Shown here: piece by piece, positions 36,562-40,738 of the stretch
Position numbering within the stretch: position 1 is the first letter of the stretch
Layout of the letters: each line of letters starts with the position of its first letter
NCBI GenBank assembly: GCA_015487695.1
Contig: WFPF01000035.1
Coordinates: 1-41,055 of the forward strand
DNA length: 41,055 nt
From: Chitinophagales bacterium
GTDB lineage: Bacteria; Bacteroidota; Bacteroidia; Chitinophagales; S012-47
Reading direction: 5' to 3'
Position numbers and translations under genes: made by a program
Notes under the pieces: generated by a model
Database searches by the model: none
Told to the model about the DNA's origin: nothing
What the model saw: the letters and a program-made list of their open reading frames with translations, nothing else

Positions 36562-37254
36562 TTAATGGAGGCCGAGCCTTTTGCGCAGGGCACTGCGATA
36601 GCCGCGGCCTATGGGTACCAATTTGTTGTTGGTGAGCAGTATATCGTCCTGTTTTATCTTGTTGATGTATTCAAGGTTGATAATAAATGATTTCTGTACC
36701 CGCATAAAGCGCGCATCATTCAACTGGTCCAAAATGTCCCGTAGTCTTTTTATGGTCATTACCACCATATTGGTCGTGTGAATCTTCAGGTTTCCGTTTC
36801 CTGTGGCCTCTATCATGACAATGTCTGAGATCAGCAGTTTTTGATAATCGGTAGGACCGGTTTTGATAAAAATGTAGGAGTTGCTTTGTTCCTCCCTCTT
36901 GTCGATGCGGGCAGTCGCTTTTTCCAAGGCCTGTAATATGCCTTCCATATGCAGCGGCTTGGTAAGGAAATGGAGCGGATCGAACTCAAAACTGTCTATA
37001 GCATATTCGGGATAGGCAGAGATAAAAATTACAAGTGGTTTTTGTTTTATTGAACGCAGAAACTCGAATCCACCGATTCCGGGCATTTCGACATCGGAGA
37101 TGATCAGGTCGATTCCCTCTTTGCTCAAAAGGGGAATCGCCTGCAAGGGGTCGGTATAAAGCCCTTTTAACTCAAAACGGGGGTCTTTCTCCAGAAACTC
37201 CGTGAGAAGGCTTACCTGTTCAGGCTGGTCATCAAGTATTATCGTTCTAATCAT
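36562..37254 (-). CDS. LytTR family response regulator
   Basis: Transcription regulator of 230 residues. The receiver domain (1-118) has DD at 8-9, phospho-acceptor D54 in LIISDVEMPGIGG, SAYPEYAIDSF and LTKPL. The LytTR DNA-binding domain covers about 130-230 (FIKTGPTDYQKLLISDIVMIEATGN, FMRVQKSFIINLEYINKI). The usual partner histidine kinase (LytS-type) is not adjacent, unlike many such pairs, so it may be encoded elsewhere. It is divergent from the YqaA-type gene across a spacer with two plus-strand terminators. Confidence 0.94.
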   Translation of the reverse strand: MIRTIILDDQPEQVSLLTEFLEKDPRFELKGLYTDPLQAIPLLSKEGIDLIISDVEMPGIGGFEFLRSIKQKPLVIFISAYPEYAIDSFEFDPLHFLTKPLHMEGILQALEKATARIDKREEQSNSYIFIKTGPTDYQKLLISDIVMIEATGNGNLKIHTTNMVVMTIKRLRDILDQLNDARFMRVQKSFIINLEYINKIKQDDILLTNNKLVPIGRGYRSALRKRLGLH

Positions 37255-37562: not shown

Positions 37563-37588
37563 GCGTAAATATTGCCGTACACAAACTG

Positions 37589-37596
37589 TAGATTTG
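37589..37596 (+). promoter_or_regulatory. -7 promoter element TAGATTTG just before yqaA-type start
   Basis: A perfect TAnnTTTG ending 5 nt before the ATG at 37602; the transcript would be leaderless or nearly so. The TTG start at 37572 in the ORF track lies upstream of it and is rejected. Confidence 0.5.
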
Positions 37597-37601
37597 CGCG
37601 A

Positions 37602-38057
37602 ATGGAATGGCTTATTGACTACGGCTACTGGGGCTTGCTGCTTGCATCTTTTCTGGCTGCTACCATCATACCATTCAGTTCCGATGTGCTTCTGGCAAGC
37701 ATGCTTTTCGGAGACTTTGACCCGCTTAAACTCTGGGTGTTTGCCACTATCGGCAATTGGGCGGGTGGCATGGTAAGCTACTACATGGGGCACTTTGGAA
37801 AGTGGGAATGGATAGAAAAATATATGAGAGTGAGCCATGAGAAGGTGCTGAAATATCAGAGCTATGCAGAAAAATACGGATTCTGGTATGCACTTATCAC
37901 CTGGTTGCCCGGCATAGGTGATCCCATAGCCATTGCGTTGGGTTTTGCGCGTACGCGCGTGGTCCCTACCATGATCCTCATGCTCATTGGCAAGGGCGGG
38001 CGCTATGCCGTCATCATTTGGATGGTACAAAGTGGCCGTGACTGGTTCCTTCATTGA
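37602..38057 (+). CDS. yqaA: YqaA family (DedA/SNARE-associated-like) membrane protein
   Basis: The 151-residue inner-membrane protein belongs to the YqaA branch of the DedA/SNARE-associated superfamily, implicated in lipid carrier or phospholipid handling. Landmarks are the N-terminal SFLAATIIPFSSDVLLASML, ATIGNWAGGMVSYYMGHFGKW, and the re-entrant motif TWLPGIGDPIAIALGFARTRV. Three or four spans are visible. Its 3' end overlaps the convergent TPR gene by 7 bp. Confidence 0.9.
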   Translation: MEWLIDYGYWGLLLASFLAATIIPFSSDVLLASMLFGDFDPLKLWVFATIGNWAGGMVSYYMGHFGKWEWIEKYMRVSHEKVLKYQSYAEKYGFWYALITWLPGIGDPIAIALGFARTRVVPTMILMLIGKGGRYAVIIWMVQSGRDWFLH

Positions 38058-38902
38058 TTGGCCCGGGTAATGAGCTCCAGCAGGGCATGATAAATCTCCG
38101 ACTCATGCTCCCGTATCCGTTCATTGGCCAGTTCCCCGGCATTGCTCAGGCCGCCCGAGTAGTAGCGATAAAACCATGGGAAAACAGACACCATGGCATC
38201 GAGGTAGGAGAGGCGAATCATTGTATTAAATGTCAACCATGCCAGGCCGCCTGTCAGCAGCAGCGAATTGAGGCCTTCTTTGATATGGCCCGAGTAAAGT
38301 TGTCCGCTCCCCGGCACTACGATGCTCATGATTTTGGCAGCTTTGGGATTGAGGCGGTGATATTTTTCATTGCGTTGAAAGAGTACGTCTATTTGCTTTT
38401 TTGAGCTGCTGTCAGCAGGCGGAATGCATCCATGGAAATAAGACCGCGCAAGTTCGAAGTTCTTAATCCCGAAATAACTGCTTGCGAGATAGAGATTAAG
38501 ACGAAGACTGTCTGAGTGACTGATCGGAGTGATGCTGAATAAATCACTCAAAGCCTGCATAAACCTGCCCTCAAGCAGTTTTAAGGCTGCTTTTTTAAAA
38601 AGAATCTCATTGGCAAGGCTGTCGCTCCTCGCATTGTCATAGGCCAAATCATAGAACATCAGAGCTTTCCCGCTTTCCTTTACATGGCTGTAGCACTCGG
38701 CCAAAGCCAGAAAACTTTTGTCACGATATGGGCCGTCACTGAAAAACAAAACACGCTGAAACAATGAAATGGCGAGCTCATATTGGCCCATCCGGGTTTC
38801 CGTTTGTGCCAATTGAAAGGTCTGATCCAGACTTTGCCCCTTCAATCCGGTCAGGAAGATCTCAGAAATGAGAAGAAATACGATGTAATACTTCTTTTTC
38901 AA
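38051..38902 (-). CDS. TPR-like protein with C-terminal PGSGxxY membrane module, copy 2
   Basis: The 283-residue protein starts at TTG 38902 (no upstream ATG fits), giving a signal peptide (MKKKYYIVFLLISEIFLTGLKGQ). Residues 25-175 hold helical repeats of TPR type (MGQYELAISLFQRVLFFSDG, LALAECYSHVKESGKALMFYDLAYD). From about 195 a module IVVPGSGQLYSGHIKEGLNSLLLTGG begins, with one or two spans and a polar end. The upstream gene has the same layout and motif, so they are paralogues. They overlap by 41 bp. Both probably sit in the envelope, facing the periplasm. A scaffold or assembly role is inference; no enzymatic motif is visible. Confidence 0.75.
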   Translation of the reverse strand: MKKKYYIVFLLISEIFLTGLKGQSLDQTFQLAQTETRMGQYELAISLFQRVLFFSDGPYRDKSFLALAECYSHVKESGKALMFYDLAYDNARSDSLANEILFKKAALKLLEGRFMQALSDLFSITPISHSDSLRLNLYLASSYFGIKNFELARSYFHGCIPPADSSSKKQIDVLFQRNEKYHRLNPKAAKIMSIVVPGSGQLYSGHIKEGLNSLLLTGGLAWLTFNTMIRLSYLDAMVSVFPWFYRYYSGGLSNAGELANERIREHESEIYHALLELITRANQ

Positions 38903-39707
38903 ATCGTTGAATGTTTTTAATGTTTTTAAGCCGTGCCGACTGATAGGACCCGTAAATATTTCCCAGATAAAAACCGAAGCTCAGTCCGCTGTAAATCCAC
39001 GCGAGAGCACTGCCGCTTCCTTCTTTGACAAATGCCCGATAGGCTCCGAAACCGGTAGATCCGATAATCATTATGCTGATGAGTCCGTCTTTCCAGTCTC
39101 CCGTGTAGATTCGGCCGCTGCCCGGCAAAACAGCCGACATGCCGGCCGCCAGCAAAGGGCTCTTCCGTTTGAGACTCCTTCCTGTTTCAATTTCCCGTGT
39201 GAAAAACTGAAGTTCCGACACCGGTATGCGATGCAAATCGTCTTTTAAAAGCATCTCGGCTTTGTCAAATTGCCTTTGCAGTATAAATGAATTCAGGCGC
39301 AGCATCTCAATTTCATTGCTGTCCAGCCCAATGTTTGGGCGCGCGATGAACTCATTCAGGTCGGGAAACTGCTTTTTCAGCAGGAGAATGCGGCCATATT
39401 CGAGTTCCAGCTCCGGTGGAAACGTGTCCAGTTCCTGCAACCACGCATGCCCCTTTAAATAGGCGCTCTGAAGATCGGGAAGAGAACGGTAGCTTTTCAG
39501 AAGCTTTGCGCGGCTTGCATAGTCATCGGGTTTCATGAATACTATTCGCTCATACTCGGCAATAGCCATTTCGTATTGTTGTGTACGAAACAGATAATCC
39601 GCAAAACGCAATGAGTGGGAGTAGTCAAACAGGTTCTCATTCTGTCCACGCAGCTGCCCGGACGACAAAAGGAGAAAGAAAAGAAAATACTTAATGAATC
39701 GGATCAT
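38862..39707 (-). CDS. TPR-like protein with C-terminal PGSGxxY membrane module, copy 1
   Basis: The 281-residue protein (ATG 39707; the TTG at 39731 is less likely) has a signal peptide (MIRFIKYFLFFLLLSSGQLRGQ), TPR-like helices over residues ~30-170 (LFRTQQYEMAIAEYERIVFMKPDD), and the module AVLPGSGRIYTGDWKDGLISIMIIGS, followed by spans and YGSYQSARLKN. The pattern hhPGSGxxY[ST]GxxK[DE]GLxS is shared with the next gene. It overlaps the YidD-like gene upstream by 17 bp and the second copy downstream by 41 bp, a sign of tight translational coupling. Similar modules appear in other Bacteroidota envelope proteins, but a function has not been assigned here. Confidence 0.75.
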   Translation of the reverse strand: MIRFIKYFLFFLLLSSGQLRGQNENLFDYSHSLRFADYLFRTQQYEMAIAEYERIVFMKPDDYASRAKLLKSYRSLPDLQSAYLKGHAWLQELDTFPPELELEYGRILLLKKQFPDLNEFIARPNIGLDSNEIEMLRLNSFILQRQFDKAEMLLKDDLHRIPVSELQFFTREIETGRSLKRKSPLLAAGMSAVLPGSGRIYTGDWKDGLISIMIIGSTGFGAYRAFVKEGSGSALAWIYSGLSFGFYLGNIYGSYQSARLKNIKNIQRFEKEVLHRISSHF

Positions 39708-40092
39708 AAAACTTGCCGGTTTCCGGATCAATCGAATATTTCTCAGGGCTAAGCCCGTTGCAGCGTGTGAGCCGGTCGAAAGTGAGCACCATGCCTTTCA
39801 GAACGCCTTTTTCCTTCACCGCTTCCATGCCATACACCGAGCAGGAAGGGGTGAATGTACATTGCTGCCCGTCTTGTGAAGAAATGAACGATTTGTAAAA
39901 AAGGAACAACCCCGAGAACAGCAATTGAAATTCGTTGCGCGAGTCGGTTTCTTCTACCCAGTGGCTATGCGCTTCTTCCCTGAAAACATTCTTTAATATA
40001 TGCAGGTCTGAAGATAGCTGCCCGTATAGGTTGGCATAATAGCTACTTCCCGCCCACAGGATAATTGTACATAAAATCGTTTTCATTTTCAT
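39691..40092 (-). CDS. yidD: YidD family protein with signal peptide (exported variant)
   Basis: YidD of E. coli is a small membrane-associated protein that helps YidC insert membrane proteins. Here the conserved core lies in the last ~90 residues: LFYKSFISSQDGQQCTFTPSCSVYGMEAVKEKG and LTFDRLTRCNG, including the three family cysteines. Unlike the ~85-residue standard, it has an N-terminal extension of ~45 residues starting with a likely signal peptide (MKMKTILCTIILWAGSSYYANLYGQ), so the core should end up outside the cytoplasm. Starts at 40104, 40092 or 40086 are all possible; I chose 40092. The start lies inside the 3' end of the LolA-like gene, and the stop overlaps the next gene by 17 bp. 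Confidence 0.85.
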   Translation of the reverse strand: MKMKTILCTIILWAGSSYYANLYGQLSSDLHILKNVFREEAHSHWVEETDSRNEFQLLFSGLFLFYKSFISSQDGQQCTFTPSCSVYGMEAVKEKGVLKGMVLTFDRLTRCNGLSPEKYSIDPETGKFYDPIH

Positions 40093-40738
40093 TAATTCGT
40101 ACATTCTTAAATGTAGTAATCTTTTTGTGTGTTTGGCCGGATGGGAGGAAATTAAATATGATCATTTCAGTTGGCACCTCCAGTCCGAGGACATTGACAT
40201 ATTTTCTGAAAAACTGTTTGCTCAGGATTTCGCCCTCTTTGCTTTTAATAACCACGCCATACAATTGCCCTTTTTTGATAGAAATAAGAACCGTTCCGAA
40301 GATTGTTTTTAATTCTTCAACAGGCACATATGTACTGATTACCTGATCGTCAACTTTCTCCACATTGCTGAGCACGTAGCCTGAACCCGGATCATTGAGG
40401 CCGAAATTTTTCGTCTTTCGCTCCAATAGCTGATAAAAGACACTGTTTTCCGCAAGGGGAGGAATTGATTTAATTTCTTCCACTACTCCGTCCCTTAATT
40501 TATAGAGCAAAGTATCCTGCATGACGATGACGGAGGGTTCCGGAAATTGAACCTCATAGACCAGTTTCTTGACATATTTGTCGAAATAAACCTTGCCCGT
40601 GATGAGCTGGCTGGCCTCATCATCCAGTTTCTCCTTGATGACAAAGTCAGCCGTAAAACGATAATAATCTTGTGCTGACAGGCTGCCCGGGAAGAGCAGA
40701 AGATACAGAAACAAGGATAGGGAAAACATTTTTTTCAT
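40043..40738 (-). CDS. periplasmic LolA-like protein
   Basis: The 231-residue protein begins with a signal peptide (MKKMFSLSLFLYLLLFPGSLSAQ) at ATG 40738, directly preceded by AAAGGAG; the ORF-track extension of 41 codons crosses a terminator hairpin. The mature part is a string of beta strands (TADFVIKEKLDDEASQLITGKVYFDKYVKKLVYEV, QDTLLYKLRDG, VLISIKKGQLYGVVIKS) resembling the LolA/LolB half-barrel that carries lipoproteins; the match is by pattern only. It is the first gene of the overlapping operon with YidD and two PGSG proteins and follows a strong terminator. Confidence 0.7.
   Translation of the reverse strand: MKKMFSLSLFLYLLLFPGSLSAQDYYRFTADFVIKEKLDDEASQLITGKVYFDKYVKKLVYEVQFPEPSVIVMQDTLLYKLRDGVVEEIKSIPPLAENSVFYQLLERKTKNFGLNDPGSGYVLSNVEKVDDQVISTYVPVEELKTIFGTVLISIKKGQLYGVVIKSKEGEILSKQFFRKYVNVLGLEVPTEMIIFNFLPSGQTHKKITTFKNVRINENENDFMYNYPVGGK

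Follow-up and report, generated by a model that had tools for sequence, protein, structure and literature searches.

YidD proteins are near-universal in bacteria, and their action is poorly understood. The Escherichia coli YidD is described as an insertion factor located near YidC and SecYEG in passages of two papers that cite Yu et al. 2011 (PMC8082313, PMC3573977). Flavobacterium johnsoniae has several copies of the carrier LolA; one of these, LolA2, is encoded in the flexirubin pigment operon together with LolB2, and the paper on these proteins (PMC11885536) does not mention YidD. The window analysed here, the complete 41,055-nt contig WFPF01000035.1 (contig C35) of the Chitinophagales bacterium assembly GCA_015487695.1 (2.77 Mb in 137 contigs), encodes a YidD paralogue of a different kind. 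This protein, g2, carries a signal peptide and is encoded in a cassette with two exported tetratricopeptide repeat (TPR) proteins, g3 and g4, an exported LolA-like protein, g1, and a small exported protein, gene0. The cassette is tentatively interpreted from its sequence as a periplasmic (extracytoplasmic) membrane-handling system built around the exported YidD, with gene0 as its main client where present, a reading that stands somewhat below an even chance. The open-licence literature on YidD, DUF5683, and TM2 proteins in Bacteroidota gave no account of a cassette with an exported YidD, in line with the original prediction, made from the sequence alone, of an under-described system.

The four genes g1 to g4 are all on the minus strand. 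The gene g1 (40738-40043, ATG start) encodes the 231-residue putative carrier, g2 (40092-39691) the 133-residue YidD paralogue with the core YKSFISSQDGQQCTFTPSCSVYGMEAVKEKGVLKGMVLTFDRLTRCN, g3 (39707-38862) a 281-residue TPR protein with a C-terminal glycine-rich module, PGSGRIYTG...GNIYGS, and g4 (38902-38051, TTG start) a 283-residue paralogue of g3, whose C-terminal module ends in RYYSGGLSNA. The open reading frames and coordinates of the original prediction were reproduced, as were the overlaps of 50 nt (g1/g2), 17 nt (g2/g3), and 41 nt (g3/g4). The signal peptides that it had assigned to all four products are also borne out by hydropathy and motif: in each, an A/G/S-Q site comes after an N-terminal hydrophobic core. 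By simple hydropathy, this core recurs in the relatives of g1 (22/23), g2 (44/44), g3 (35/38), and g4 (34/36), almost none of which have a lipobox. The nearest public relative of the window is the Chitinophagales metagenome-assembled genome JALSIH010000144, referred to below as the sister genome, which was also the sole match when genome contigs were scanned with g2.

On sequence, g2 is certainly a member of the YidD family. It matches PF01809 with an E-value of 2.4e-19 (69.3 bits; cut-off, 27) and TIGR00278 with 4.7e-17 (61.6 bits; cut-off, 40), E-values here and below being per genome. It does not match the canonical, cytoplasmic YidD. In a sample of 199 genomes of the order, ordinary YidD copies score about 43 to 60 bits and the long exported-type copies at least 76 bits; two lower-scoring copies from family f16 (L121 and L122; GTDB families and loci are given as f and L codes) also turned out to be in cassettes. 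All 26 genomes in this sample that have an exported YidD also carry an ordinary one. The canonical YidD of the window genome, on contig C21, adjoins an RnpA-like frame (by eye); g2 adjoins g1 and g3 instead. A tree of 80 alignment columns places 60 exported cores on one side of a branch and 30 ordinary ones on the other, with a Shimodaira-Hasegawa-like approximate likelihood ratio test value of 88, which is not decisive. The basic charge of the ordinary core is lost in the exported one (mean net charge, +0.8 versus +7.2). An [x]DR[x] signature is found in 58/60 exported and 0/30 ordinary copies, and the residue that follows the first Cys is basic in 1/60 and 28/30, respectively.

The first two cysteines of g2 (C-x5-C) are invariant in 44 exported copies. 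A third is present in g2 and in all Chitinophagales copies and is absent in f36 (13/13), f54 (10/10), and f65. Its absence in f36 and f54 leaves an even number of cysteines, as would be expected of an exported protein that forms disulfides. The N-terminal hydrophobic core (44/44) and a cleavage-type A/G/S-[QN] site (37/44), both judged by hydropathy and motif, support, without proving, a location of g2 outside the cytoplasm. No PDB relative of YidD was found by sequence, and in a scan of viral contigs with close alignment, YidD matches were limited to the core domain.

Conservation was followed in 61 cassette loci from 17 GTDB families and more than one class of the phylum. Several of the search profiles were built from cassette members, so that presence in these is by construction; absence elsewhere and gene adjacency were not used by the searches and are informative. 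All 61 loci have a g3 gene directly after the exported YidD. The g4 gene is present in 54/61; of the remaining seven, three are cut by contig ends (L059, L065, and L122) and four apparently have one TPR gene (L118, L194, L195, and L196). Sampling was reciprocal: every locus chosen by its YidD had g3, and an exported YidD accompanied each of the full-length g3 matches that were fetched. Full-length g3 is found in 44/396 genomes sampled across the phylum, and the exported YidD in 26/199 genomes of the order, most of which do not have the cassette. Two loci initially taken for YidD without a TPR partner, L119 and L120, were dropped as ordinary YidD copies in mis-chosen frames.

With cassette proteins as queries, the order g1-g2-g3-g4 is found in many families of the order at 19 to 43% identity, and an overlap of about 41 to 53 nt between g1 and g2 is seen again in relatives from several families. 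Gene order persists across classes at about 20 to 30% identity, with invariant cysteines and motifs and no sign of decay; a distribution limited to close relatives, which would have spoken against a shared system, is thus not what these loci show. The g1 gene is present in 24/61 loci and missing from 37/61; f36 and f54, two families of another class, commonly have g2-g3-g4 without it. The four-part set originally proposed is thereby reduced to a universal core of YidD and one or two TPR proteins, with g1 as an optional member. In one lineage (L118:4599-5801, plus strand), the exported YidD and the TPR protein with its C-terminal module form a single chain of 400 residues. Fusion of two genes is a classic indication that their products work together. 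The fusion, the constant g2-g3 adjacency, and the overlapping genes uphold the treatment of the four genes as one unit.

The identities proposed for the products hold to different degrees, that of g2 being beyond doubt. Profile comparison shows g3 and g4 to be paralogues (99.9%; E-value, 9e-34). Their scores against DUF5683/TM2, 14.3 and 17.0 bits, respectively, are below the Pfam cut-off of 26.7, and their TPR matches are likewise subthreshold in Pfam; both recur in relatives, where DUF5683 is matched in 19/38 and TM2 in 11/38, none above the cut-off. The C-terminal module, read as a membrane module in the original prediction, may or may not span a membrane. The TPR region of g4 also drew the names of a type III secretion system chaperone and other proteins, which were rejected because all are far below cut-off. 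A protein that begins with a similar module, PGLGHFYCG, is encoded next to a signal peptidase-like gene at L199:4133-5278 (by eye).

For g1, a LolA-like nature is plausible, short of proof. The window protein has no match in Pfam, including the LolA clan at its cut-off. Among 23 relatives, 8 weakly match LolA_like (best E-value, 0.014) and 3 DUF4292 (best, 0.00083). The hhalign probability for g1 against Bacteroidota LolA is 62%, versus 4 to 7% for controls without a shared fold, and there is a weak PDB match to 3buu, a LolA-superfamily protein (E-value, 0.86). An AlphaFold2 model of g1 from two sequences had a predicted local distance difference test (pLDDT) score of 36.6 and was not used. 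A search across the phylum gave too weak a signal to map g1, and inspection of the neighbourhood revealed no LolCDE or LolB partners beside the cassette.

The original prediction did not include gene0, which is cut by the contig end: its open frame (41054-40824, minus strand) continues past the edge, leaving the 3' part of a gene whose product is small and exported and has a two-helix hairpin at its C terminus (PPLGIPSFVWGFCLGFVGIGLVYLITEDRDETKKALWGCVASAA...). In the sister genome the homologue is complete, a small protein with a signal peptide and a C-terminal hydrophobic hairpin. Complete members of the family are found in L013 and 14 other genomes. The gene0 family is found in 15/199 genomes of the order, all of which have the cassette; with relatedness ignored, the hypergeometric P value of this overlap is about 3e-19 when set against the 19 genomes whose exported YidD is strongest and 1e-20 against a set of 17. 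Among the 61 loci, gene0 is never found without g1. Several diverged gene0-like copies lie beside the cassette in L014 (3-368, 442-1068, and 1601-2032) and L016 (5079-5546 and 5686-6123), one of them with a TM2-like hairpin. In two further families (L073 and L105), the gene convergent with the cassette after g4 encodes a secreted TM2-domain protein, a gene0-like neighbour with a true TM2 domain. Profile comparison detects no homology between gene0 and g3 or g4.

Between gene0 and g1 lies a strong terminator-like hairpin with a 15-bp stem and a T run (40804-40770, minus strand), read here as a transcription brake (attenuator). A terminator-like structure does stand upstream of g1, as reported; the isolation of the unit that had been deduced from it does not hold, since the hairpin separates g1 from the cassette-specific gene0. 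The distance from the hairpin to the ATG of g1 is 31 nt, which leaves little space for a separate promoter, so that g1 to g4 are probably transcribed by read-through from gene0. An automatic terminator scan missed the hairpin, since the T run is base paired with a run of A, and an Rfam search gave no match. The sister genome has the same hairpin with another loop and one additional stem pair. Strict criteria pick out a hairpin with a T run at the gene0/g1 boundary in 9/16 loci and no other across 40.7 kb of these operons; weaker versions occupy this boundary in L054, L055, L057, and L103. With its GC-containing stem, T run, and conserved place, the hairpin has the properties of an intrinsic terminator, and termination at this site is predicted.

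The placement of the hairpin differs by lineage. It is intergenic in the window, L057, and L065 and intragenic in others; in f3, f12, and f13 it lies within g1 itself, where the codons specify the end of the signal peptide and the following GQxFFR. In seven different sequences of the intragenic form, 13/13 pairs are kept, six of which have changed on both sides, and synonymous recoding matches the fold energy of the hairpin in 0 to 2 of 2000 trials for 7/7 genes. Variable placement at a constant boundary suggests that selection acts on how much gene0 is made relative to the machinery encoded downstream.

In the proposed mechanism, g2 would be secreted and would bind a membrane through an amphipathic YidD core, either the inner membrane at its outer face or the outer membrane at its inner face. 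The g3 and g4 proteins, putatively membrane associated, might form a scaffold that holds g2, and g1 might shuttle hydrophobic cargo. In the Chitinophagales clade that has gene0, the main client would most likely be gene0 itself; the brake would pass only part of the transcripts into g1 to g4 and so keep the client in excess over the machinery. The cassette would then handle an abundant exported hydrophobic protein, possibly by insertion or delivery. A more specific version, in which the cassette is an extracytoplasmic counterpart of the YidD insertion-assist system that uses the exported YidD and two TPR scaffolds to insert or deliver small exported hairpin proteins from the periplasmic side, the ratio of client to machinery being set by a terminator within the signal-peptide codons of the carrier, is rather doubtful. 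Several observations count against the membrane-handling interpretation. Most lineages with g2-g3-g4 (f36 and f54) lack both g1 and an adjacent gene0, so that gene0 cannot be the only client and another client or purpose is needed, which is the main weakness. The co-occurrence of gene0 with the cassette is confounded by shared ancestry, the similarity of g1 to LolA is slight, and the C-terminal module of g3 and g4 is of moderate hydropathy. Structure prediction gave no confident model of g3 (AlphaFold2 from two sequences; pLDDT, 35.5; not used).

The alternative that survives best, itself unlikely, is lipid or lipoprotein transport, with g1 as a true LolA-type carrier, g3, g4, and the exported YidD as its loading platform at the inner membrane, and gene0 as an accessory subunit. 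The weak relationship of g1 to LolA families agrees with it, and dedicated LolA paralogues have a precedent in the LolA2 of F. johnsoniae (PMC11885536). Against it, g1 is missing from 37/61 loci, which retain the YidD-TPR core; no LolB-like partner is seen beside g1, and a brake after gene0 would be less fitting for an accessory subunit than for a product made in abundance.

Two further explanations are improbable to a similar degree. In the first, the cassette would serve the export of, or immunity to, a small membrane-active protein, such as a pore-former or a bacteriocin-like weapon, with g1 to g4 either delivering the gene0 copies or protecting the producer from them. The gene0 product is small and exported, has a hydrophobic hairpin, and at times occurs in several diverged copies (L014 and L016). 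A terminator-like brake comes after its gene, an arrangement common among structural genes of peptide systems. However, it matches no toxin family, neither a dedicated exporter nor an immunity gene is seen, lineages that lack gene0 have a near-constant core, and the gene0 hairpins resemble the TM2-type domains of ordinary membrane proteins. In the second, the cassette would be a membrane quality-control or stress module, functionally related to LemA and TPM genes and not an insertion or transport machine. A LemA gene and then a TPM gene are found just after g4 in L073 (Chitinophagales) and in loci of other classes (L106, L113, L117, L209, and L210), whereas most Chitinophagales loci have no such neighbours, and the association may be due to chance or shared ancestry. 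Finally, the set might be an ordinary operon that holds a leftover YidD duplicate and whose genes share no special role, as its parts from common families and its presence in a minority of the order genomes (26/199) might suggest; this is hardly credible given the gene order kept across classes, the invariant cysteines and motifs, the absence of decay, the gene fusion, and the covarying hairpin pairs.

Beyond the cassette, the window encodes a VTT-domain (DedA-type) protein (37572-38057, plus strand), convergent with g4 and overlapping its end by 7 nt, and, on the far side of that gene from g4, a LytTR response regulator (36562-37254, minus strand). Elsewhere, the cassette neighbours are conserved yet differ from family to family (L017, L019, and the L054-L055 intervals; by eye). 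Short lipoproteins of one family, starting with C(A/S)T(I/V), are encoded beside the cassette in three families (L103:956-1324, L118:4154-4624, and L196:5665-6153). The PEGA domain was confirmed in those of L103 and L196; in L118, the gene for the PEGA-like lipoprotein is just upstream of the YidD-TPR fusion. A family of secreted proteins is convergent with g4 in three families (L014:4753-5583, L015:9940-10866, and L016:1322-2362), its L014 member having no Pfam match. By eye, the neighbours in f16 include secreted proteins of the envelope type and an epimerase-like gene, and those in f12 glycosyltransferase-like genes.

If the cassette does insert or deliver exported hairpin proteins, it would add a new route to envelope biogenesis in a large phylum. 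Its function is directly testable, with gene0 as a defined candidate for the client and a regulatory prediction that can be measured.

Each part of the cassette can be compared with a known system. Operons are known in which a terminator-like brake parts an abundant product from its machinery, and the succession of a strong gene, a hairpin with a T run, and then the handling genes is similar here; the difference is that in f3, f12, and f13 the hairpin sits inside the g1 reading frame. The C termini of g3 and g4 share the PGxGxxYxG...G pattern of DUF5683/TM2 proteins, to which they add an N-terminal exported TPR domain and the unique endings GNIYGS and RFYxGGxxNA. LolA proteins, including LolA1 to LolA3 of F. 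johnsoniae (PMC11885536), are, like g1, exported and of similar size, with weak profile similarity; g1 falls below every family cut-off, is coinherited with the YidD and TPR genes and gene0, and has no adjacent LolB. Finally, g2 shares with the canonical YidD (PF01809/TIGR00278) the Y...IS, C-x5-C-S, G..KG, and R..RC motifs, but it has a signal peptide, a near-neutral core, and the DR signature and lacks the GYDPVP ending. Its gene is accompanied by TPR genes and not by rnpA, in a genome that keeps a separate ordinary YidD. An exported YidD with fixed partners is a natural experiment on the YidD core, placed out of reach of the cytoplasmic insertase.

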